From the NCBI GenBank assembly GCA_000830175.1, contig JQIS01000061.1, positions 1-45,994 of the forward strand: a stretch of 45,994 bases of DNA, in the 5' to 3' direction. Under the pieces are notes generated by a model. That model was not told where the DNA came from. It worked only from the letters and a program-made list of their open reading frames with translations, and made no database searches. This document shows positions 180 to 26,000 of this stretch, piece by piece; the first letter of the stretch is position 1; each line of letters opens with the position of its first letter. The DNA comes from Sulfurovum sp. FS08-3. GTDB taxonomy: Bacteria; Campylobacterota; Campylobacteria; Campylobacterales; Sulfurovaceae. Made by a program: the position numbers and the translations under genes.

Positions 180-2612
180 TTACGCCGTAACGCTTCGGAT
201 GTATATTTCGATACTGGTATTGAGGTGTTCAAGCTCTTCGATGTAGCGGCTTACATAGTTGGAGAGTTTGCTGTAACGTTGATGTTGCAAGAGCGATTCG
301 AGTTCGTTGAGCAATCGATACATATCGTTAGCTCCCATGATGTTGCTAATCCCTTTCATGCTCACCACAAGCTCTTTCATTTTGCGGTAGTCGTGTACCT
401 CAATCAGTGCCTTGATTGTCTCGCCGCTTGTACCATAGACGCTTTGGAACTCTTGGAGTAGCTCTAAGTAGAGGGCTTCGTTGTGACTAGCTTGCATAAT
501 GCCTCGTGTGATGTCCAAAATGTGTTCACTTTGTGTGAGTTTGGCAAAAGGTGCACCCAAATCGGCTTTTTCCAAATAGTGGTGCAAGGCGGTATAGACT
601 TTGCTTACGGTGATAGGTTTGTTGAAAAAGGCATTGATACCTGTTTTTGTAATCTCCATAGGGCTAAACTCTTCATTACTAATCGCAACAATGGGGATAT
701 GGCGATAGCTCTCATTGGAACGAATCATTTTGGCGATGATGAGTCCTTTGTCGTGTTCGATTTCCAAATTGATAAAAATAAGATCAAAACGGTTGTAGTA
801 GCTCTCAAGCTCTTCAATGGCACGTTTGGCATTGCGTGCTTGTGCGTATTTGATGCCTGTGCGATGAATCATATCGTCAAACTCTTTTTGGTGGAGGATA
901 TTGTCATCGATAATGAGCAATGAAGAGCCAAGATAATCTTTCAAAAAGGATTTGGTTGCTTCGATTGTTTCGGGAAGCTCTTGCAAAAACTGTTTGGGCA
1001 GGTCACTGTGTAGATGCCTATCCATCTTTTCCATAAATACTATCTCCTCTTCGTTGGTGACAATTTTGGGTTGTTTGTAGGTATCCAAAAAAAACTTAAG
1101 TGCATTGGAGGGGCTAATGGGTTTGGCAATGTATCGCTCAATGATGGAATCAATAATCTCTTTGTGTTGGGTAGAGAGAATGCTGTGCATGGCAAGGACA
1201 TGCAACTCTTTGTTTTGCTGGATGCTCTCAAAAAGTGTAAGAAGCGAGGAGTTTATCATGGAGTGTTCAATCAAAATAAGATCAAAACGGTTAATAACAT
1301 CGTAGTCATTGAGGCTATAGTGAGCTATGGTTTGGACGTTTTTGGTGCTGTGCAAAAAGGCTTTTTGAACGGCAAGGGCGACTCCCTCATCTCTTTCGAT
1401 GATACCGATATATTTCTTTTGAAGCTCTTGGGAGGAGAACCTTGTGGATGTAAGCCTGTAGATTTGCTCATGCTCTTGGTCAAGCTTGAGAGGAATGGTG
1501 ACCGAAAAGATATTGCCTTTGCCGTATCGACTCACAAAATTGAGCGTTCCGCCCATAAGCTGTGCAAACTCTTTGGATAAGAAGAGTCCCCTTTTGGCAT
1601 AGGGGTCGTGAAAGGGTAAAAATATCTTCTCCTCTTCGGATTTATGAACTCCTACACTGTTGTCAATGATTTTAAACTCACTTAAAAAACTGCTCTTGTC
1701 TTGCTCAAATACGGAGATGACAAGCCTGATAGTACCCGATGAGGTGTGCCTATAGGAGTAGTCGATGATATTGACTAGAATCTCATAGAGTCGTTTAAAA
1801 TCACCCACCATATAGTGCCAAACATTTAAATTGACCTCATAGATAAGCTCTACGGAGTGACCTTTGTAGTTTTGTTCGACATACATCGTAATGGATTCCA
1901 AAAGCTGATTGATATCAAAGGAGCTAGGCGTGAGTTTGAGTTTGCCCGATTTTGCTTTCAAAAAATCAATCATCTGATTGGTTGTATCGGTGAGAATCTT
2001 ATCGGTATCTTGAATGGCTTTGAATTTGTGCCGAATATTTTGGGGTGTAAGCTCGTTGATGGGTTCGTTGATAATCTTGTCACGAGCATGAATCATATCA
2101 TTGGTTGAACGTTCGATTTTGTAACCCAAATTTTTGAGTATCTCATCGTGTTTCATCGAGAGTGTCTCTTTGAGTTTTTGAAGTCTCTCGTGATCCTCTT
2201 TGAGATTTTTGTATAGGGTATAGTAGTGATTGATAATCAAAACACTTATAGAGACTATCATAATAAGCAATGTCATAAAAAACCATGTGGTATTGGTGAG
2301 TTTTGCTTTGTAGTCTTTGTCGTAATCTATTTTGATATGAGGGTAGTCGTGTTTTAAGATGCCGTAAATAAGGGGAATCATGCGTGTATCGTTAAAATCA
2401 TAGAGCATAGGCGAGAAGTATTGACCTATTTTTTGGGTTGAGAGTTCAAAGCGATGACGTTTGGAAAGCTCTTTGATTAAACCATTCTCTTTTGTCTCCT
2501 CCAAAGCTTGATGTGCTTGGGCGTAGGTTTTGTATGAACCTAATGTAATGTATTGATTTCCTTGAGCAAAAGAGCAACTCACCATCAAAACGAGCCATAA
2601 AATTAACCGCAT
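180..2612 (-). CDS. Hybrid histidine-kinase-like protein without phospho-acceptor residues
   Basis: 810 aa from the ATG at 2612, which follows AAAGGT; an upstream ATG at 2636 is less likely because the signal peptide begins at 2612. Order (residues from this start): signal peptide 1-16, SPOR-like periplasmic part to about 105, membrane segment about 110-131, coiled coil, DHp-like helix about 155-215, HATPase-like domain about 235-375, two receiver-like domains about 400-510 and 564-680, and an HPt-like C-terminus about 700-775. The fold order matches a hybrid phosphorelay kinase, but the key residues are replaced: the H-box His by Tyr164, the N-box Asn by Tyr285, receiver Asps by Glu449 and Asn615, and the HPt His by Val750. 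The receiver Lys residues are kept. It is probably a scaffold or pseudokinase that signals by conformation. The gene appears intact. Confidence 0.8.
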   Translation of the reverse strand: MRLILWLVLMVSCSFAQGNQYITLGSYKTYAQAHQALEETKENGLIKELSKRHRFELSTQKIGQYFSPMLYDFNDTRMIPLIYGILKHDYPHIKIDYDKDYKAKLTNTTWFFMTLLIMIVSISVLIINHYYTLYKNLKEDHERLQKLKETLSMKHDEILKNLGYKIERSTNDMIHARDKIINEPINELTPQNIRHKFKAIQDTDKILTDTTNQMIDFLKAKSGKLKLTPSSFDINQLLESITMYVEQNYKGHSVELIYEVNLNVWHYMVGDFKRLYEILVNIIDYSYRHTSSGTIRLVISVFEQDKSSFLSEFKIIDNSVGVHKSEEEKIFLPFHDPYAKRGLFLSKEFAQLMGGTLNFVSRYGKGNIFSVTIPLKLDQEHEQIYRLTSTRFSSQELQKKYIGIIERDEGVALAVQKAFLHSTKNVQTIAHYSLNDYDVINRFDLILIEHSMINSSLLTLFESIQQNKELHVLAMHSILSTQHKEIIDSIIERYIAKPISPSNALKFFLDTYKQPKIVTNEEEIVFMEKMDRHLHSDLPKQFLQELPETIEATKSFLKDYLGSSLLIIDDNILHQKEFDDMIHRTGIKYAQARNAKRAIEELESYYNRFDLIFINLEIEHDKGLIIAKMIRSNESYRHIPIVAISNEEFSPMEITKTGINAFFNKPITVSKVYTALHHYLEKADLGAPFAKLTQSEHILDITRGIMQASHNEALYLELLQEFQSVYGTSGETIKALIEVHDYRKMKELVVSMKGISNIMGANDMYRLLNELESLLQHQRYSKLSNYVSRYIEELEHLNTSIEIYIRSVTA

Positions 2613-2750
2613 AAAATTACCTTTTGAGATAAACATAAAGTATTATAGCAATTTTAGTGTACTACTCTCATTAAATTTTGCGGTTGTTTAAAAGCACAAC
2701 AACCCATCAAACCCATCGCAAATCTTAACGCCTCTTAAGTGCCTTTTGAG

Positions 2751-2756
2751 TATAAT
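2751..2756 (+). promoter_or_regulatory. Likely -10 box for carB
   Basis: A perfect TATAAT lies 29 bp upstream of the carB ATG. No good -35 box is seen, which is common in this phylum. An AAGGG Shine-Dalgarno follows at about 2771-2775. Confidence 0.5.
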
Positions 2757-2784
2757 CAGCACTAAAAACTAAGGGTAATTTTCG

Positions 2785-5700
2785 ATGCCAAAACGAGAAG
2801 ATATTAAGACAATTTTATTGATAGGTTCTGGTCCTATTGTGATTGGTCAAGCGTGTGAATTTGACTACTCAGGCACACAAGCGGCCAAAACGCTCAAAGA
2901 ACTAGGCTACAGAGTGGTACTTATCAACTCCAACCCCGCTACTATTATGACCGATCCAGAGTTTGCCGATCGCACCTATATCGAACCCATCACCGAAGAG
3001 GTTGTTGCTAGAATTATCGAAATAGAAAAGGTTGATGCGATACTTCCTACTATGGGTGGACAAACCGCACTCAATGTGGCGATGAGTATGTACGACAAAA
3101 AGATGCTTGAGGGTATCGAGTTTTTGGGTGCTAAGCCTCATGCGATCAAAAAGGGTGAAGATAGACACCTCTTCAATGAAGCGATGATTAAAATCGGCAT
3201 GGATTTACCCAAAAGTGCCAACGCCTACACCGTAGAAGAGGCGATACAAGTCGCCAAAACCATCGGTTTTCCCGTTATCAGTCGTGCTTCGTTTACATTA
3301 GCAGGAGGCGGTTCGGGTGTCGCTTACAATATGGAAGAGTTCAAAGAACTTGCCAAAGCAGGAATTGAAGCGAGTCCCATTAATGAAATAGAGATTATGG
3401 AGTCGATGCTAGGGTGGAAAGAGTACGAGATGGAGGTGATTCGAGACAACAAAGACAACTGCATTATCGTCTGCTCCATCGAAAACTTTGACCCCATGGG
3501 CGTACATACAGGAGACTCTATCACAGTAGCTCCCGCACTCACCTTGACCGACAAAGAGTATCAAATGATGCGTGATGCCTCGTTTAAAATACTACGAGAG
3601 ATTGGTGTGGATACGGGGGGTTCAAACGTGCAGTTTTCGATTAATCCCGAGACGGGGCGTATGATTGTTATCGAGATGAATCCTCGTGTAAGTCGCTCTT
3701 CCGCATTGGCATCCAAGGCTACAGGTTATCCTATTGCCAAAGTTGCCACACTCTTAGCCGTAGGCTATACGCTTGATGAGATTGAAAACGACATTACAGG
3801 TACGACGGCATCCTTTGAGCCTGTGATTGATTATATCGTCACCAAATTGCCACGCTTTACCTTCGAGAAGTTTCCCAATGCCAACTCCACGCTAAGCACA
3901 GGAATGAAGAGTGTAGGTGAGGTGATGAGCATAGGACGAACCTTCAAAGAGTCTTTCCAAAAGGCTTTGTGTTCGCTTGAGACGGGGCTTGTAGGGTTTA
4001 AAGTGATGGATTGCAATGATACCAAACTCGTTCACGAGATACGTCGCCCCAACGAACAACGTATGCTCTACGTCTATGAAGCCCTTAGAAGAGGGATGAG
4101 CGTAGAGGATATTTACGAAATGTGCAAGATTGATAAGTGGTTTTTGTATCAATTTGAAGAGCTAGTATCGAGTGAAAAAGCGATGGATATAGCCATGCTT
4201 AGCGATGCTACACGATTACGCAAAGCCAAATCAGAAGGATTTAGCGATGCGATGATAGCCCAAATCATCAATCAAAAAGAGGGATTGCGTTTGGTCGAAA
4301 ACGATATTTACACCGCACGTCAAAAGCTTGGCATTGCACTTGAATACAACGAAGTTGATACCTGCGGTGCAGAGTTTAAAGCCCTCACTCCCTACCTCTA
4401 CTCTACAACCAACATTACTCCTATCCCCCAAAGCCAACCCAAAGCACGTGATAAAAAGCGGGTTTTGGTTATCGGCGGAGGACCCAATCGAATAGGACAA
4501 GGGATTGAGTTTGATTATTGTTGCGTCCACGCTTCGTACGCACTAGGCGATATGGGATTGGAGTCTATCATGTACAACTGCAACCCCGAAACCGTCTCAA
4601 CCGATTACGATACAAGCGATATTCTCTACTTTGAACCCATTGATTTTGAGCATGTACGCAACGTCATTGAGGTAGAAAAGCCCGATGGAGTCATCGTCCA
4701 CTTTGGAGGACAAACACCGCTCAAACTTGCCAAATCACTTACGGCTATTGGGGCAAATATCTCAGGTACGAGTGCCAAAGTCATCGATTTGGCGGAAGAT
4801 AGAGAGAAGTTTTCGGAGTTTATCCATCAACTCCAACTCAAACAACCCAAAAACGGCACTGCTTTTGCCAAAGATGAAGCGATAGGTATTGCCAATCGAA
4901 TCGGTTACCCCGTATTGGTACGCCCTTCGTTTGTATTGGGCGGACGAGGGATGAAGACGGTCTTTAATGACAAAGAACTCAAAGCCTATATGGATGAGGC
5001 GGTGAGCGTCTCCAACGATGCACCCGTACTTATTGATAAATTCCTTGACCACGCCATTGAGGTGGATGTGGACGCTATTTGCGACGGAAAAGAGGTCTAT
5101 ATCGGCTCTATCATGCAGCACATCGAAGAGGCGGGGATTCACTCAGGCGATAGTGCTTGTTCCTTACCTCCTGTCTCTATCTCTACAGAGCTTCAAGAGG
5201 AGATCAAAGAGCAAACCGCAAAAATCGCATTGGGACTGGGCGTAGTAGGTCTGCTCAATATCCAATACGCCATCTTTCAAGGCGAAATCTATCTCATCGA
5301 GGTCAATCCACGCGCTTCACGAACCGTCCCATTTGTCTCCAAAGCCACAGGTGTACCCCTTGCAAAAGTAGCCACTCGGGTGATGATACAAGGAGATTTA
5401 AGGGAGGCTTTGCGTTTTTACGATACCTTTAATGTCGTCAATTTTGACAAAACCATCATGGAACCCAACCTCAAAGGGCATATTGCTCTCAAAGAGGCGG
5501 TTTTTCCTTTCAATAAACTCCCTGGTTCGGATTTGATTTTGGGACCCGAAATGAAATCGACAGGCGAAGTCATGGGCATCTCCAACCAATTTGGAATGAG
5601 TTTTGCCAAAGCTCAATTGGCAAGTAAAAACAACATTCCTATGAGCGGGAAACTCTTTATCTCACTCACCAATCAAGACAAACCTTACGCCAAAGAGATT

Positions 5701-19648: not shown

Positions 19649-22600
19649 ATGTTGAGTGGCAATCATAGAAAAGTATTGGGTTTGGACATAGGAGCAAACA
19701 GTATCGGGTTTGCGTTGCTAAAACTTGATGAGCAAAAGGGTGAAACGCTCTTTGAAGAGTTGGCAAGTAATAGTATTGTGTTTTCTAGTCCCAATGGAGC
19801 AGAGGATAGACGCAAGGCACGAGGTAACAGACGCATACATGAACGCAAAAGTTTACGCAATCGCAACAGTAGAAAAATATTTGTTCGATACGGTTTGGCT
19901 CAACAAGCGTTTATAGACAATACAACGCAATATCTTAATGATTTTAAAATGAAAGATAGAGATGTTTACTCTATTCGCCAAAGAGCTATAGAGGGCGAGA
20001 TGCTCACTCAAGAGGAGTTTGTACTAGCAACCTATTCAATACTTACCGATAGAGGCTATAGCAATATGTTTGCTCCTATCAAGAAGGATACAAAAGAGAA
20101 GGAAGAAGAAAACGAAGAGGGTGTTATCAATGAAGCGGTTAATCACAACGCAATGCTCTACAAACAAGCGGAATATCCCCTCCCTTCCATGGTACTTACT
20201 CAAAAACGACAAACGTTGCAAAATGCGTTTCAAAATGTAGCTGTTCGCAATAAAAAAGAAGATTATAGCAACTCTTTGGGGCGTGAAATGCACAAAGAGG
20301 AGTTTAAAGCCGTAGTAGTCTCGCAATCAAAAAACAAAAATCTATTTTGTAATGAAGAGGAGTGTTTAGCTTTTGTTGATGAGATACTCGATGAAGAGAC
20401 TCCCAATAGAGCCTTTTTTCAACGTCCGCTTAAAAGCTTTGACAATATGGTGGAGTATTGTGCCTTTTACGATGCCTTTAACCCCAAAGGCTCACACAAG
20501 CGAATGCCACTGGCTAATATTGCCAATATTGAGCTGACTTTACGTCAAAGCATTGATAATTATGAAGCTATCCATAGCAAAACGGGTGAGATTAGGATTT
20601 TTAGCGATGAGGAGAAGCAAAAAATTGTCGATTTTTGGATCGAGACTCCCGATGCTGATGAGATTAAATCCAATAATATTTACAAAAACGCAGGGTTTAA
20701 AGATATTGTTATACATCTAGCAGAAACAAAAGAGTTTCGTGTGCTTAATATCAAAGCCCATAGAGCATTGTTGGAGGTGCTTCGTGCCTACAGTGTTGAT
20801 TTTAGAAACAAAGATAATGCATTTTACAATGAATTGCTTTTGGTACTCTACTACTACAAAAACAGCTCTTCTCGTATCAAATACATCGAGGAGTTGATAG
20901 CAAAATATGTAATGGCTATCGATGGGGCGTTTGTCAAGGAGTGTGCCAATCTCAAAAATATGGACGGTTTTGGCTCGTTTTCGCTCAAATTTGCCAATGA
21001 GGTGTTGGAGCTAATGCAAAAAGGGGTGATACACTCCAAAGCATTGGAAGAGTTGGGCTACAAAAGTAAATATTTAAATATGCCAACCTATAGCTATTTG
21101 CCTCCTCTTGAACCAACCCCAAAAGATAGAGAGTGGCTACAAAGCAACCTCCCTTATTTTCAAACCCAACATCTCTTCTATCAACCCAAAATCTCACCCA
21201 AAGTCAAACGAGTTATTGGAGTATTGCGAAAGCTTGTCAATGAATTGATAGCCAAATACGGTGCGATTGATGAGATACGCATAGAGACCGCAAGAGAGCT
21301 AAACTCTCAAACTGAAGAGAAAGCTATCGAAGAGAACCAAAAGAAAAACGATACACAAAACAGAGAAGCTCAAAAGTTTTTAAAAGACAAAAATTTAGCC
21401 CAAAGTCCTAAAAATTTAGAGAGAGTCAAGCTTTGGAAAGAGCAAGGGGGCTTTTGTCTCTACAGTGGAGAGGAGATTGTCGAAGAGGAGATGTTGGATG
21501 AAAATCAAACCGAAGTGGAACACTTCATCCCTCGTTCGGTTATTTGGATAAACTCCTTCAAAAATAAAATTTTGGTCAAAAAGAAGTACAATCAAAACAA
21601 AGGTTCGCAAAATCCTATTACCTACCTTAAATCAAAAGGAGAGTGGGAAAACTTCAAGGGGCGTATCAAGCTTGACCCCAAAAGTCCAAAATACAAGTGG
21701 CTAACCCATGAGGAGCATATCGAGAATGTCATGCAAAAAGAGCATTGGCAAGAGAGCTATCTAAACGATACCCGTACCGCTACCAAAACCATCGCAAAAT
21801 ATCTCAATCACTATCTCTACCCCAATCAAAACCTCTACGGCAAAGGCGAAAAGCGATATATCGCAAGTGTCACAGGCAAGGCGATAGGGGAGCTAAAGCA
21901 TATTTGGGGGATTCATAAGGTCATGCCCAAAGATGAAAACGACAAAAAAGATAGAGATACCCAATACCACCATACGCTTGATGCTTTTGCGATTGCTTTG
22001 TGTTCCAATGGGGCTATGAAAACACTTAATGACTCTTTCAAACAAAACGAGAACCATTTCCAAACCAAAGCCCAAAAAGCCAAGCTAAAAGAGGGCGTAC
22101 CAACCACAACCGATGGGGTGAGTATCGTAGAGTATCTTAAAAGTATCGTAGAGAAGTACGAAACCCATCAACGCCTTGTATGCCCCTACAACAAACGCAA
22201 AACCAACATGAAAGGCTTCAAAGATGGTAATCTAAAGCTCTATATCACCCAAGACCCCAAAGATAAGAACAAAGAGATACTTGCAGAGATGGAAAAAGTA
22301 GCGATTGATAGCTCTTTGCTAATCAAAAAAGTCAATGGATTTGACAAGCCCCGAAGTGATGATGAGGTCAAAAAAGTGATACAATCTATCCAATCACGCC
22401 TCAATCCACAAAAACAAGCAAATATCATTGAAGCGATAGAGATTTATGCCAATAGGCTTTTGGAGTTGCGAAAGGGTATTGATGCTTTGGACTTAGAGAT
22501 TAAAACCGAGCAAAAGAGGCTCAAAACAGGCAAACAGCACAAAGAGGATAATGATAGCATCAAAAAGCAAACTATCGCACCGCTTCAAGCTCAAAAAAAG

Positions 22601-23257
22601 GAGCTAAGCCTTGAAATGCAAAATCTAAAATGCAGTTTTGCAACCCAAAAAGGCAAAAGGCAAATCGTGCGAAAGCTCAATCTCTATCGAGAAAAAATCG
22701 AAAAGAGTTCAGCCGATAGCATTATCTTTACCCAACGAAAAGAGCGAACTATTGAACGTCTCTCTGTAGATAATTTCCGTGAAGCTTTAGAGAATAAAGA
22801 GCCTTTTGTTATCAAGGAGAATAAAAATATATTTTGCGTCGAGCTTTACGCTCATCCCAAGCAAAATCAAGTCGTAGGTCTCAAATACTTTAGCTCCTTA
22901 GCCAATCTCCATATCAAGACAAAAATTAATGAAAAATATGGAGATTACTTTGAAGATAAAAAGCCCATGCTTACACTCTACAAAAATGATATTATCAAAG
23001 TCTTTTATACCAAAGAGGCTAGAGCGGAGTATTATGTTTTTAATGGTGGAGGAGATATGACAGGGACTAACAATAAAGTATCAATTAAAAAGATAAACCA
23101 CCGTACATTTACAGCTACAAATAAAAAAGGAGTGGTAGAAGTCTCCAAAGAGGGGGCTATTACTCCCAATAGCACAACCGTTGTATCAAAAGTCACAATA
23201 GATTTTTTTGGAAATATTGAGGAGGTTAAGCAAAATGCAAAGTCAACTTGGTTATAA
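19649..23257 (+). CDS. cas9: Cas9 endonuclease (type II, II-C-like)
   Basis: 1202 aa RNA-guided nuclease that appears intact. RuvC-I VLGLDIGANSIGFALL (D13), Arg-rich bridge helix RRKARGNRRIHERKSLRNRN (about 54-75), RuvC-II IDEIRIETARELN (E546), HNH with EVEHFIPRS (H625) and YNQNKG (N648/N650), RuvC-III YHHTLDAFAIAL (H775, D778), then a C-terminal PAM-interacting region. The HNH has Glu where Cas9 normally has Asp before the catalytic His, a conservative change. Residues about 930-1015, between RuvC-III and the C-terminal domain, form a long Lys/Glu/Leu coiled-coil-like stretch, which accounts for the length beyond typical II-C proteins (about 1000-1100). Cas1 follows after a tracrRNA-like interval; no csn2 or cas4 is visible, so the subtype rests on inference. 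Confidence 0.96.
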   Translation: MLSGNHRKVLGLDIGANSIGFALLKLDEQKGETLFEELASNSIVFSSPNGAEDRRKARGNRRIHERKSLRNRNSRKIFVRYGLAQQAFIDNTTQYLNDFKMKDRDVYSIRQRAIEGEMLTQEEFVLATYSILTDRGYSNMFAPIKKDTKEKEEENEEGVINEAVNHNAMLYKQAEYPLPSMVLTQKRQTLQNAFQNVAVRNKKEDYSNSLGREMHKEEFKAVVVSQSKNKNLFCNEEECLAFVDEILDEETPNRAFFQRPLKSFDNMVEYCAFYDAFNPKGSHKRMPLANIANIELTLRQSIDNYEAIHSKTGEIRIFSDEEKQKIVDFWIETPDADEIKSNNIYKNAGFKDIVIHLAETKEFRVLNIKAHRALLEVLRAYSVDFRNKDNAFYNELLLVLYYYKNSSSRIKYIEELIAKYVMAIDGAFVKECANLKNMDGFGSFSLKFANEVLELMQKGVIHSKALEELGYKSKYLNMPTYSYLPPLEPTPKDREWLQSNLPYFQTQHLFYQPKISPKVKRVIGVLRKLVNELIAKYGAIDEIRIETARELNSQTEEKAIEENQKKNDTQNREAQKFLKDKNLAQSPKNLERVKLWKEQGGFCLYSGEEIVEEEMLDENQTEVEHFIPRSVIWINSFKNKILVKKKYNQNKGSQNPITYLKSKGEWENFKGRIKLDPKSPKYKWLTHEEHIENVMQKEHWQESYLNDTRTATKTIAKYLNHYLYPNQNLYGKGEKRYIASVTGKAIGELKHIWGIHKVMPKDENDKKDRDTQYHHTLDAFAIALCSNGAMKTLNDSFKQNENHFQTKAQKAKLKEGVPTTTDGVSIVEYLKSIVEKYETHQRLVCPYNKRKTNMKGFKDGNLKLYITQDPKDKNKEILAEMEKVAIDSSLLIKKVNGFDKPRSDDEVKKVIQSIQSRLNPQKQANIIEAIEIYANRLLELRKGIDALDLEIKTEQKRLKTGKQHKEDNDSIKKQTIAPLQAQKKELSLEMQNLKCSFATQKGKRQIVRKLNLYREKIEKSSADSIIFTQRKERTIERLSVDNFREALENKEPFVIKENKNIFCVELYAHPKQNQVVGLKYFSSLANLHIKTKINEKYGDYFEDKKPMLTLYKNDIIKVFYTKEARAEYYVFNGGGDMTGTNNKVSIKKINHRTFTATNKKGVVEVSKEGAITPNSTTVVSKVTIDFFGNIEEVKQNAKSTWL

Positions 23258-23265
23258 TATTAGGG

Positions 23266-23344
23266 TATCAAATGGGGATTTGATAGCTTTGGTTAAAGCA
23301 AGAGGCACTTTCCCGAGCCTCACAAGTTTTATACTTAAATCGGG
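23266..23344 (-). ncRNA. Predicted tracrRNA, antisense between cas9 and cas1
   Basis: Read on the minus strand from about 23344, the interval gives a likely anti-repeat (complement of GTTTTATACTTAAATCGG, 23326-23343), then three perfect hairpins: GAGGC/GCCTC (23302-23321, nexus position), GCTTT/AAAGC with an AACC loop (23286-23299), and an 8-bp stem TATCAAAT/ATTTGATA with a 4-nt loop (23266-23285). This order, the length of about 80 nt and the position next to cas9 match known II-C tracrRNAs. A good promoter faces the right way. The weak point is that no U tract follows the last stem. The matching crRNA repeat should begin GTTTTATACTTAAATCGG; I do not see it elsewhere in the window. Confidence 0.72.
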
Positions 23345-23349
23345 ATTCT

Positions 23350-23378
23350 CTTATGTTTAAGCAAATTTTCATTGTCAA
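23350..23378 (-). promoter_or_regulatory. Promoter for the predicted tracrRNA
   Basis: On the minus strand, a consensus TTGACA -35 (23373-23378) is followed after exactly 17 bp by CATAAG (23350-23355, four of six matches to TATAAT). The -10 overlaps the cas1 ATG on the other strand. Predicted start is about 23343-23344. Confidence 0.6.
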
Positions 23379-23661
23379 TCGAGCCTATTTAAGCTACCGT
23401 AATAATTCCATGATTGTCAAAAACGATGCAGGTGCTACGCCTATTTGTCTTGATGATATTGATATTGTCATTATCGAAAACCAACAAACTACTCTAACTT
23501 CCTCGCTCCTTTCGCATTTGGCTCTTGCTAATATTGTGGTGATTTTTGTAGATGAGCGACATATCCCCTCTGCTCTATCTCTAGGACTCTACAAAAACAG
23601 TCGCACCGCAAAAATACAACGCAGTCAAATCAACCTATCCAAACCCAAATATAACTTGTAG
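23353..23661 (+). pseudogene. cas1: cas1, truncated at about residue 98
   Basis: 102 codons of a protein normally about 300 aa. Residues 1-98 are a good type II Cas1 N-terminal domain: FIVNRAYLSYRNNSMIVKND, LDDIDIVIIENQQTTLTSSL, NIVVIFVDERHIPSALSLGL and SQINLSKPK. After SKPK the frame reads YNL and stops because the sequence passes at about 23650 into the 3' part of the opposing CHAP gene. The whole catalytic helical domain (Glu, His, Glu metal ligands) is absent, so spacer integration is lost. No cas2 follows. There is no clear ribosome site; it was probably translated with cas9. Confidence 0.9.
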
Positions 23662-24664
23662 ATGAGTTGTTCCACGATTGATTAACAACTTGTGTACCGC
23701 TTGAATTAGCTACTTGCAGTGTTATTGTTGATAGAGCTTTATTGTCTGATGCATTAAGGTATGCACCAATAGAACTTGTACCCTCTTTGATTGAAACACC
23801 TGATAAATATGAAACAGAAGCTGTTGGTTTGGTGGTGTCGCCAGATGCTGATGCTGTAACAGTAAATGGATTATATCCTAGTTCGCTCCAATTCGTACCA
23901 TCTTTGGAAACCTTAACTATAGCATAATAACTTCCAGCATTTGATGTATTGGTTTGAATAAAATCAGAAGACCATGTTGAATTTGCATTAATTGTTACAT
24001 TATCAAAAATTTTCATATCTTTGACATATTTTTTAGCAGAATCATGAATAGACAAAGCAATTTTTTTATAAGTAATTGCTGTTGAACCATTATTCACTAA
24101 CTTAAATTGGGCATCAAATCCATTTGTTGTATTAGCATAAATTGGTGCTGTTTTAATCCAAAAATCTTTGAGTGCAATACCTTGAATATGAATAAAATTA
24201 TCTATTGCTGTAATTTTTATATTTCTTGTAGTGTATTTATGATCATAGTTTTTATTATATTCTGAAATAGTTACTGTACCATCATTGTTGACAGATTCTA
24301 CATATGCAACATGCATTGTTTCCCAAACAGCAATATCACCAACTTTTGGAGTTTTATCTACACTAAGACCTATGGACTTAGCAGCATTATCCCAATTGTT
24401 AGCATTACCAAAATGAGTCGCCTTCCAAACACCATTGACTTCTGTACCTGAATTTAAAAATTTAATGCCATTTTGTGTAATTTTCCATGCAACATACGAA
24501 GTACATTCGCATTTATAAAAATTAAACTTATCAGCTATATAGACTTTATTATCTGGGAGACCGCTAGTTTTTCCAGGGGGACATCCCTCCATCTCTGATT
24601 CATATGTAGCATTTGCCAACAAACCAACTGTTAAAGCTAAAAATATAAGTAGCTTTTTCATCAT
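23630..24664 (-). CDS. Secreted CHAP-domain protein, C-terminally truncated
   Basis: 344 aa from the ATG at 24664 (AAGGAAAA upstream; a Met one codon later is equally possible). Signal peptide KKLLIFLALTVGLLANA, then a CHAP amidase/peptidase domain with FYKCECTSYVAWKI (catalytic Cys), VGDIAVWETMHVAYVESV (His) and ISEYN (Asn/Glu). After about residue 160 come Ig-like repeats (APIYANTTNGFDAQFKLVNN ... PTASVSYLSGVSIKEGTSSI). The last residues WVWIG are not Ig-like; they are the complement of cas1 sequence. So the gene lost its 3' end at the same junction (about 23650) that cut cas1. A role in peptidoglycan cleavage is the family expectation. Confidence 0.8.
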   Translation of the reverse strand: MMKKLLIFLALTVGLLANATYESEMEGCPPGKTSGLPDNKVYIADKFNFYKCECTSYVAWKITQNGIKFLNSGTEVNGVWKATHFGNANNWDNAAKSIGLSVDKTPKVGDIAVWETMHVAYVESVNNDGTVTISEYNKNYDHKYTTRNIKITAIDNFIHIQGIALKDFWIKTAPIYANTTNGFDAQFKLVNNGSTAITYKKIALSIHDSAKKYVKDMKIFDNVTINANSTWSSDFIQTNTSNAGSYYAIVKVSKDGTNWSELGYNPFTVTASASGDTTKPTASVSYLSGVSIKEGTSSIGAYLNASDNKALSTITLQVANSSGTQVVNQSWNNSSTSYIWVWIG

Positions 24665-24806
24665 TTTTCCTTTATGTATTTTTTGCAACATTATAAATGT
24701 TGTTTTCATTTGTTAGAAACTTCGTTGCTGTTTAAGGTAACAATAATCAAGTTTCAAGTTTTTAATACCATTTGTTTAGAATTTGCTCTCTGTTCCTCTC
24801 AATTTG

Positions 24807-24814
24807 CCCCCCCC
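24807..24814. repeat. Homopolymeric (C)8 tract
   Basis: Eight C in a row within very AT-rich DNA, 143 bp upstream of the CHAP gene (G8 on its strand). Poly-G/C tracts of this length are typical slippage sites in Campylobacterota. The rest of 24665-25097 is AT-rich intergenic DNA without an open frame I would support. Confidence 0.6.
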
Positions 24815-24999
24815 ATTTTTCTAATTTTAATTTAACTTTTCCTCATTAAGAAATCATAGACAATTTCAAATGTAAACCACTTGCAGTCAATCATGACTTC
24901 ATAGCAACATTTAAAACTCTTTTCACTCATTTCCTCATTGATTTAAGATACTTAAATTTTAAGATAATAAAAATTTAGAGATTGTTAAAATATATCCTG

Positions 25000-25029
25000 T
25001 AGTAAGGTTCTAGTTAGGTTAGTAAGGTT
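25000..25029. repeat. Short direct repeats before the 25098 gene
   Basis: TAGTAAGGTT (25000-25009), TAGTTAGGTT (25011-25020) and TAGTAAGGTT (25020-25029) are spaced about one helical turn apart. They lie 69 bp before the start of a gene with an HTH-like N-terminus, so they could be its operator. Confidence 0.5.
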
Positions 25030-25097
25030 ATTGTTAGTATTTTAAAAATAGATTTTTGTTAAAATACATTTATAAAAACATATTGTGGGAGCCAAGG

Positions 25098-26000
25098 ATG
25101 AACGATGAGAGAAAAAAAGCCAACGAAAAAGACAAGATACGATCTCGAAAGTTTGAATACATTATTACCAATCATATAGGTTCTATAGATGCCATAAAAG
25201 ATAAATTTGGTTTCAAAAACAAATCAAAACTTAGCTCTTTTCGCAATCCAGAATCTTCCGATCAGCTCACATCTTTGCATTTGTTGGGACTGCAGGAGTA
25301 TTTCAAAATCCCTGTTGATGTTTTTGATCCATCAATCCCTTACGATTGCGATACAATAGATGCCAAAATAGAAGCATACCAAAAACAATTAGAACAACAA
25401 ACCAAAGAGCTTAAATTCTTAGAGAGTCTCAAAAATCACAATCTTATTCCGCCAACACTCTACGATGATGATGTCCAAACGCAATCACAGATTGATACGA
25501 TTGTCAAAGAGTACAAACAACAATACGCCAATCAAGCGTCAATGGGTATTTTTGAAAAAAAAAATGACGAGCTTTTGAAAAATCTTCTAGGCACATGGTA
25601 TGCCTATATGTATCCAAGTTGCCTTACTGGAATATGGACAGAAGATGGGATTAGCATGACGAAGACAGAAATTTATGAAGATGGTAGCGTGATAGATGAG
25701 TATAACAATAAAGGGATACTCAAAATAGGTCATGAACAAAGCTTTATCATCAAAGAATCCAAAAATGCTAAAAATCTCAACATTATACGCTTTAACAATC
25801 ATCACGTAATCTATCGTAGTACATTTCGTATTCTCATCTTCTCCAATCAAAACGGCAAGCGGGATGAGGAGATGGTGAATTATGGTTTCTACTCTCGCAA
25901 GGCGTACAAGCCCGATGAAGCCAAAGCGATATTGGGTGATATTGACAAAGTCCAACTCAAACTTGACAAGGAGTTTGCTACGAGAGTCAATGAGAGCTAA
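25098..26000 (+). CDS. Unrecognised protein with HTH-like N-terminus
   Basis: 300 aa from the ATG at 25098, which has GGGAG 6 nt upstream; a TTG at 25056 lacks one. I do not recognise the family. Residues about 15-75 (YIITNHIGSIDAIKDKFGFK ... LHLLGLQEYFKIPVDVFDP) look like a helix-turn-helix domain. Residues 95-140 form a coiled coil (AKIEAYQKQLEQQTKELKFL). From about 165 a beta-rich domain begins (LLGTWYAYMYPSCLTGIW, then alternating strands), which resembles a ligand-binding barrel. The layout suggests a sensor-type transcription regulator. It converges with the next gene. Confidence 0.6.
   Translation: MNDERKKANEKDKIRSRKFEYIITNHIGSIDAIKDKFGFKNKSKLSSFRNPESSDQLTSLHLLGLQEYFKIPVDVFDPSIPYDCDTIDAKIEAYQKQLEQQTKELKFLESLKNHNLIPPTLYDDDVQTQSQIDTIVKEYKQQYANQASMGIFEKKNDELLKNLLGTWYAYMYPSCLTGIWTEDGISMTKTEIYEDGSVIDEYNNKGILKIGHEQSFIIKESKNAKNLNIIRFNNHHVIYRSTFRILIFSNQNGKRDEEMVNYGFYSRKAYKPDEAKAILGDIDKVQLKLDKEFATRVNES

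Follow-up and report, generated by a model that had tools for sequence, protein, structure and literature searches.

A putative hybrid histidine pseudokinase of Sulfurovum and its catalytically degenerate family in Sulfurovaceae

A minus-strand gene in the window (the whole stretch of 45,994 nucleotides analysed here, from a 2.5-Mb Sulfurovum genome) encodes a protein that has the predicted fold of a hybrid histidine kinase, is maintained by selection and lacks an acceptor His, and which by these sequence criteria is a histidine pseudokinase. We propose, with moderate confidence, that this membrane-anchored protein works in a DivL-like manner by binding and not by phosphotransfer, its DHp domain docking a receiver or a partner kinase. 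Histidine pseudokinases have so far been single cases such as DivL, whereas here they appear as an ancient, family-wide and repeatedly duplicated set, in which the kinase, the first receiver and the phosphotransfer domain seem to have been dead from the start and one receiver has usually been kept but was dropped several times independently.

Gene and domain organization

The open reading frame lies at positions 180-2,636 of the minus strand (818 aa), and its orthologue at L037 (positions 873-3,326) is 92% identical. Since AAAGGTAATTTT, a good ribosome-binding site, stands 5' of the ATG at 2,612 and a signal peptide follows, this ATG is probably the start, which gives 810 codons; the open frame of that length claimed for 180-2,612 in a preliminary description of the sequence is real. 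The predicted protein begins with a signal peptide (residues 9-25, positions 2,562-2,612), recognized in the sequence as a hydrophobic N-terminus ending SFA/QG, followed by a SPOR-like periplasmic domain (residues 26-110, positions 2,307-2,561) supported by alignment with the corresponding domain of L104, a relative described below, and one transmembrane (TM) helix (residues 117-135, positions 2,232-2,288) assigned by hydropathy. The cytoplasmic part comprises a DHp-like domain (residues 165-235, positions 1,932-2,144) aligned to HK853-type structures, a degenerate HATPase domain (residues 236-386, positions 1,479-1,931), the pseudo-receiver REC1 (residues 409-522, positions 1,071-1,412) placed by the family alignment, the receiver REC2 (residues 571-690, positions 567-926) and a pseudo-HPt domain (residues 700-818, positions 183-539), all on the minus strand.

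The order DHp-HATPase-REC-REC-HPt, already given in the preliminary description, was borne out by Pfam, phmmer, NCBIfam and the family alignment. In Pfam, HATPase_c matched residues 278-384 (E 3e-12) and Response_reg residues 574-684 (E 8e-16), Hpt matched residues 725-802 below threshold (18.2 against a cut-off of 24.6), and no PAS domain was found in the protein. The best NCBIfam matches were BarA and TorS, with 149 bits for BarA against an equivalog cut-off of 890. From its predicted fold and domain order the protein is classified as a hybrid histidine kinase. It shares the DHp-HATPase-REC-HPt order with the tripartite hybrid kinases of the BarA/TorS/ArcB types, but differs from them in that its phosphotransfer residues are all replaced and its scores fall far below the equivalog cut-offs. 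AlphaFold returned a pLDDT of 32 for the full protein and 43 for the periplasmic domain, neither of them a usable model.

Lost and retained catalytic residues

Reading of the raw codons placed Tyr172 (2,121-2,123) at the H-box His position, Tyr293 (1,758-1,760) at the N-box Asn position, Glu457 (1,266-1,268) and Asn623 (768-770) at the phospho-Asp positions of REC1 and REC2, respectively, and Val758 (363-365) at the HPt His position, so that the five substitutions reported earlier hold codon by codon. In phmmer, residues 144-383 aligned with solved HK853-type kinases, with SHEL over GYKI and LLNNG over IIDYS; Tyr172 is therefore assigned to the acceptor His site and Tyr293 to the N-box Asn site. 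This alignment, together with well-anchored relatives (FLANMSENIHDIV versus the canonical FLANMSHEIRTPM), ruled out the objection foreseen in the preliminary description that other His or Asp residues might fill the acceptor sites.

Further losses were found beyond the five. The G1 box reads DNSVG, its G1 Gly being replaced by Ser327, little is left of the ATP lid, and REC1 has Arg415 in place of its second acid. None of the features that define the enzyme survives unaltered: the G boxes, the His of the H-box and of HPt, the N-box Asn and the receiver Asp are all replaced or degenerate. REC2 retains the metal-binding acids D577 and D578 as well as Ser653 and K673, and is short of the acceptor Asp alone. 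Both domains can be classed as pseudo-receivers by loss of the phospho-Asp or the acid pocket (E457 and R415 in REC1, N623 in REC2). A Glu at the receiver Asp site is a common change in bacterial pseudo-receivers (PMC12632262), which REC1 resembles in having neither the Asp nor the second acid; what sets the window protein apart is that a single dead kinase holds two dead receivers and that in REC2 nothing but the Asp is missing.

Purifying selection on the degenerate protein

About 155 synonymous and 82 non-synonymous differences separate the gene from its L037 orthologue, whose frame is intact, and give a Nei-Gojobori dN/dS of 0.117. Among the domains, the ratio was 0.06-0.07 for DHp, 0.08-0.09 for HATPase, 0.09 for REC1, 0.14 for REC2 and 0.07 for HPt; the TM/coil region, at 0.56, was the exception. 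Every cytoplasmic domain of the window protein is under purifying selection. For the three paralogues B, C and D of the same genome, full-length dN/dS was 0.06-0.16. In REC2 the ratio was 0.13-0.14 for the window gene (paralogue A) and for B in comparisons with G000, and 0-0.04 for D among G000, G003 and G004. These ratios, and the occurrence of the same losses in orthologues and paralogues, support the earlier proposal that the protein is kept while its chemistry is gone; the opposite outcome, orthologues with intact residues and a high dN/dS, did not hold, as none of the 117 family members described below is intact and the ratio is low.

An ancient family of hybrid pseudokinases

Besides A, the genome carries three further members: B, at 47% identity, and the longer C (883 aa) and D (915 aa). 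Matches were present in 102 of 175 Sulfurovaceae genomes, and outside Sulfurovaceae one member each was found in two genomes of other families, G269 (L092) and G272 (L095). We aligned 117 members and compared them with 11 canonical controls. None of the members has the H-box His (90 Glu, 8 Tyr, 6 Asp, 5 Gln and others, one of them a gap), which is present in all 11 controls, and the kinase core of every control has both the His and the Asn. With a non-His residue in 117 of 117 members and His in 11 of 11 controls, loss by chance is excluded. The HPt His is likewise found in 0 of 117 members, and none combines in REC1 the Asp, the Lys and the second acid of a working site; a complete REC2 phosphorylation site is kept in 102 of the 117.

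In a tree computed without the catalytic columns, the family forms one group with support of 100 and a long stem. A single change, on this fully supported stem, suffices for the loss of the H-box His, while about four changes are needed for the REC2 Asp, all of them within the window's genus. Paralogue D has an intact REC2 in all five genomes of that genus. On the sequence evidence, the H-box and HPt His residues were already gone in the predicted family ancestor. The residue losses first noticed in the window protein are thus real but not peculiar to it. Of the scaffold role suggested at the same time, the dead chemistry stands; a pure scaffold as the family norm does not, with 102 of 117 members bearing a complete REC2 site and the Asp lost only in the window's genus.

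L104, a protein from another family of the same order that is placed outside the pseudokinase group in the tree, has the same succession of SPOR domain, TM helix, DHp, HATPase, REC, REC and HPt, but retains all the catalytic residues, namely the H-box (SHELRTP), the N-box Asn, both receiver Asps and the HPt His (SHEIKG). Its periplasmic domain passes the Pfam SPOR model (PF05036) with a score of 24.6 against a cut-off of 21. Because L104 combines this architecture and a SPOR domain with a full set of catalytic residues, the pseudokinase family may plausibly descend from an active hybrid kinase of the SPOR type. The periplasmic domain of the window protein aligns with the SPOR domain of L104; it had no Pfam SPOR match of its own at the threshold of 21, and a profile of it found nothing in the PDB. 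L104 lends support to a SPOR identity for the SPOR-like input proposed in the preliminary description. This domain is not a necessary input, since many members have only a few residues between the signal peptide and the TM helix.

Pseudokinases and pseudo-receivers are known kinds. In a literature search covering histidine pseudokinases, degenerate kinases of Sulfurovum and SPOR-domain hybrid kinases, no account of this family was found; against that literature, what appears to be new is a whole hybrid kinase family dead since its ancestor, with the last site lost stepwise. It offers a natural series for asking why the kinase fold persists once catalysis is lost, and also implies that annotations of hybrid histidine kinases in Sulfurovaceae overcount kinases.

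Several shorter or related proteins were observed as well. In family f16, some genomes encode short REC-pseudoHPt proteins of 359-413 aa, in which the receiver Asp is intact and the HPt His absent. L096, L099, L100, L101 and L102 are short REC plus HPt-like membrane proteins, likewise with an intact receiver Asp and no HPt His, related to the C-terminus of the pseudokinase family. The genome of the window also has a hybrid kinase relative at L007:1456-3696, with no predicted TM helix, an intact H-box and Lys at the HPt His site, which is a possible partner.

Conservation shifts from REC2 to DHp

Domain identities were compared in pairs of members at 35-70% identity, 3,297 with the REC2 Asp and 18 without it, the pairs not being independent of each other. 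In Asp-bearing pairs conservation is highest in REC2 (mean 0.57 versus 0.39 for DHp), which exceeds DHp in 98% of the 3,297. In Asp-lacking pairs DHp comes first (0.62 versus 0.43 for REC2), and REC2 exceeds DHp in 6% of these 18 non-independent pairs. In the clade of the window protein DHp ranks highest in conservation, and NLGYK, whose Tyr stands where the His would be, is invariant in the A/B clade among members down to about 38% identity over the cytoplasmic domains. The rise in DHp conservation predates the Asp losses, because L012 and L032 show it with the Asp present.

Gene neighbourhoods

The window gene stands alone, divergent from carB and with the contig end on its downstream side. 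Its neighbours gave no functional clue; in L037, the nearest downstream genes are toxin-like as judged by eye. The first 240 codons of carB (2,785-3,504 versus L037:2-724) are nearly identical (dS 0.02), whereas the pseudokinase gene beside it has diverged strongly from that of L037 (dS 0.375), a contrast that suggests recombination at that spot.

The paralogues are placed differently. In three genomes B lies 3' of genes for an ABC ATPase, an FtsX-like protein and an M23 peptidase, in a layout like ftsE-ftsX-envC, the FtsX label resting on resemblance with no Pfam hit; A lies outside this operon, whose ATPase is FtsE-like. Paralogue C is grouped with two other genes, one for a coiled protein with two TM helices and the other for a small SPOR-like/TM/coil protein resembling the kinase's own N-terminus. 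The pair upstream of C is conserved (L039:2933-4552, L057:4444-5990 and L044:7360-8993), with products of 333-353 aa (two-TM coiled) and 179-197 aa (SPOR-like/TM/coil), and the L039 pair had no significant Pfam or NCBIfam match. Paralogue D is divergent from a biotin-synthase-like gene, and as a member in another genus (L041) is placed likewise, this site is probably old. An active HQWRQPL kinase of L041, overlapping by a few nucleotides, appears to share one operon with two members and a small SPOR-like protein, and in genus g10 an active SHEIRTP-type hybrid kinase of 504-511 aa is encoded directly downstream of a member.

Binding as the probable mode of action

We favour action by binding because catalysis is absent while the fold is selected. 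The DHp dimer would persist as a surface for docking, on the model of Caulobacter DivL, which has Tyr at the equivalent position, shows neither kinase nor phosphatase activity and binds DivK~P through its DHp (PMC4211667). The DHp may bind a phosphorylated receiver, the bound state being relayed up or down the protein, or may form mixed dimers with a kinase or with the protein's own paralogues, as the pseudokinase ChrS heterodimerises with the related kinase HrrS (PMC9491836). Candidate partners are the phosphorylatable paralogue D of each genome in the genus and an active kinase of the cell, and the SPOR-like periplasmic domain probably couples the pseudokinase to the state or site of the cell wall. 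This reading is favoured by the NLGYK-centred DHp being most conserved in the clade where REC2 lost its Asp and by members adjoining active kinases in other genera (g10, L041). Counting against it, the window gene stands alone and has no partner linked to it; dimerisation alone would also give high DHp conservation; and the Asp-lacking pairs are few (18) and non-independent, with the DHp shift older than the Asp loss in the clade.

The likeness to DivL of Caulobacter crescentus extends to the Tyr in place of the H-box His, a weak ATP site, a kept DHp fold and a gene under selection (PMC4211667). DivL, however, takes its input through PAS domains, and neither tandem receivers nor an HPt domain are known from it; the window protein instead combines two receivers and a pseudo-HPt with a SPOR-like periplasmic domain, and in many of its relatives the His site is occupied by Glu, Asp or Gln. 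By analogy, it would be DivL-like in its working without being a DivL, as it has a receiver and no PAS domain. Binding could also involve split labour, which we consider rather unlikely: D keeps a phosphorylatable receiver and a pseudo-HPt, and A, B and C dropped the site and keep DHp as a reading surface. If so, one ancestral hybrid kinase would have become a phosphate-reading network of four inactive kinases whose sites are set by their SPOR-like domains.

A passive structural scaffold, in which the cytoplasmic part holds proteins near the membrane or the division site with no switching, is a tentative alternative, the next most likely after docking and close to the role suggested in the preliminary description. 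It would agree with the loss of all catalytic residues, the SPOR-type domain and the position of paralogue B in its operon. However, A is not part of that operon, and the REC2 pocket residues are kept, with the whole site present in close relatives, which argues that a conformational receiver state was in use until recently.

The HisKA phosphatase motif consists of an acid at +1 and T/N at +4 after the His. The window protein has Lys173 and Arg176 at these positions, and +1 is Asn or Lys in most family members, so that a sensor phosphatase, which has no kinase activity and dephosphorylates a response regulator, is improbable even though DHp is conserved. BumS of Campylobacter jejuni is a precedent in the same phylum for a sensor without kinase activity, but it is a cytoplasmic PAS sensor with phosphatase activity (PMC11796366). 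That Tyr172 itself takes up phosphate, a role formerly suggested for DivL, is very improbable. Although no other residue occurs at this position in the window's clade, the window protein has also lost the N-box Asn, the ATP lid and the first Gly of G1; in other members Glu, Asp or Gln occupies the site; and DivL turned out to be inactive (PMC4211667). That a kinase gene is simply decaying and has yet to acquire stops, as the many lost residues and the contig-end position might suggest, is hardly credible; this reading was rejected on the dN/dS against L037, with the losses common to 117 members over a deep tree. Under the binding proposal, Sulfurovum-type bacteria seem to employ dead kinases as binding partners, not as enzymes.

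Other features of the window

A type II CRISPR locus lies at 19,649-23,661, in which a full Cas9 (1,202 aa) precedes a cas1 frame that ends at 102 aa, against about 278 aa for the family. No repeat array was seen within 23,200-25,100, the sole stretch searched. A gene for a secreted peptidoglycan-hydrolase-like protein (23,630-24,709, minus strand) runs into the end of the short cas1 frame.
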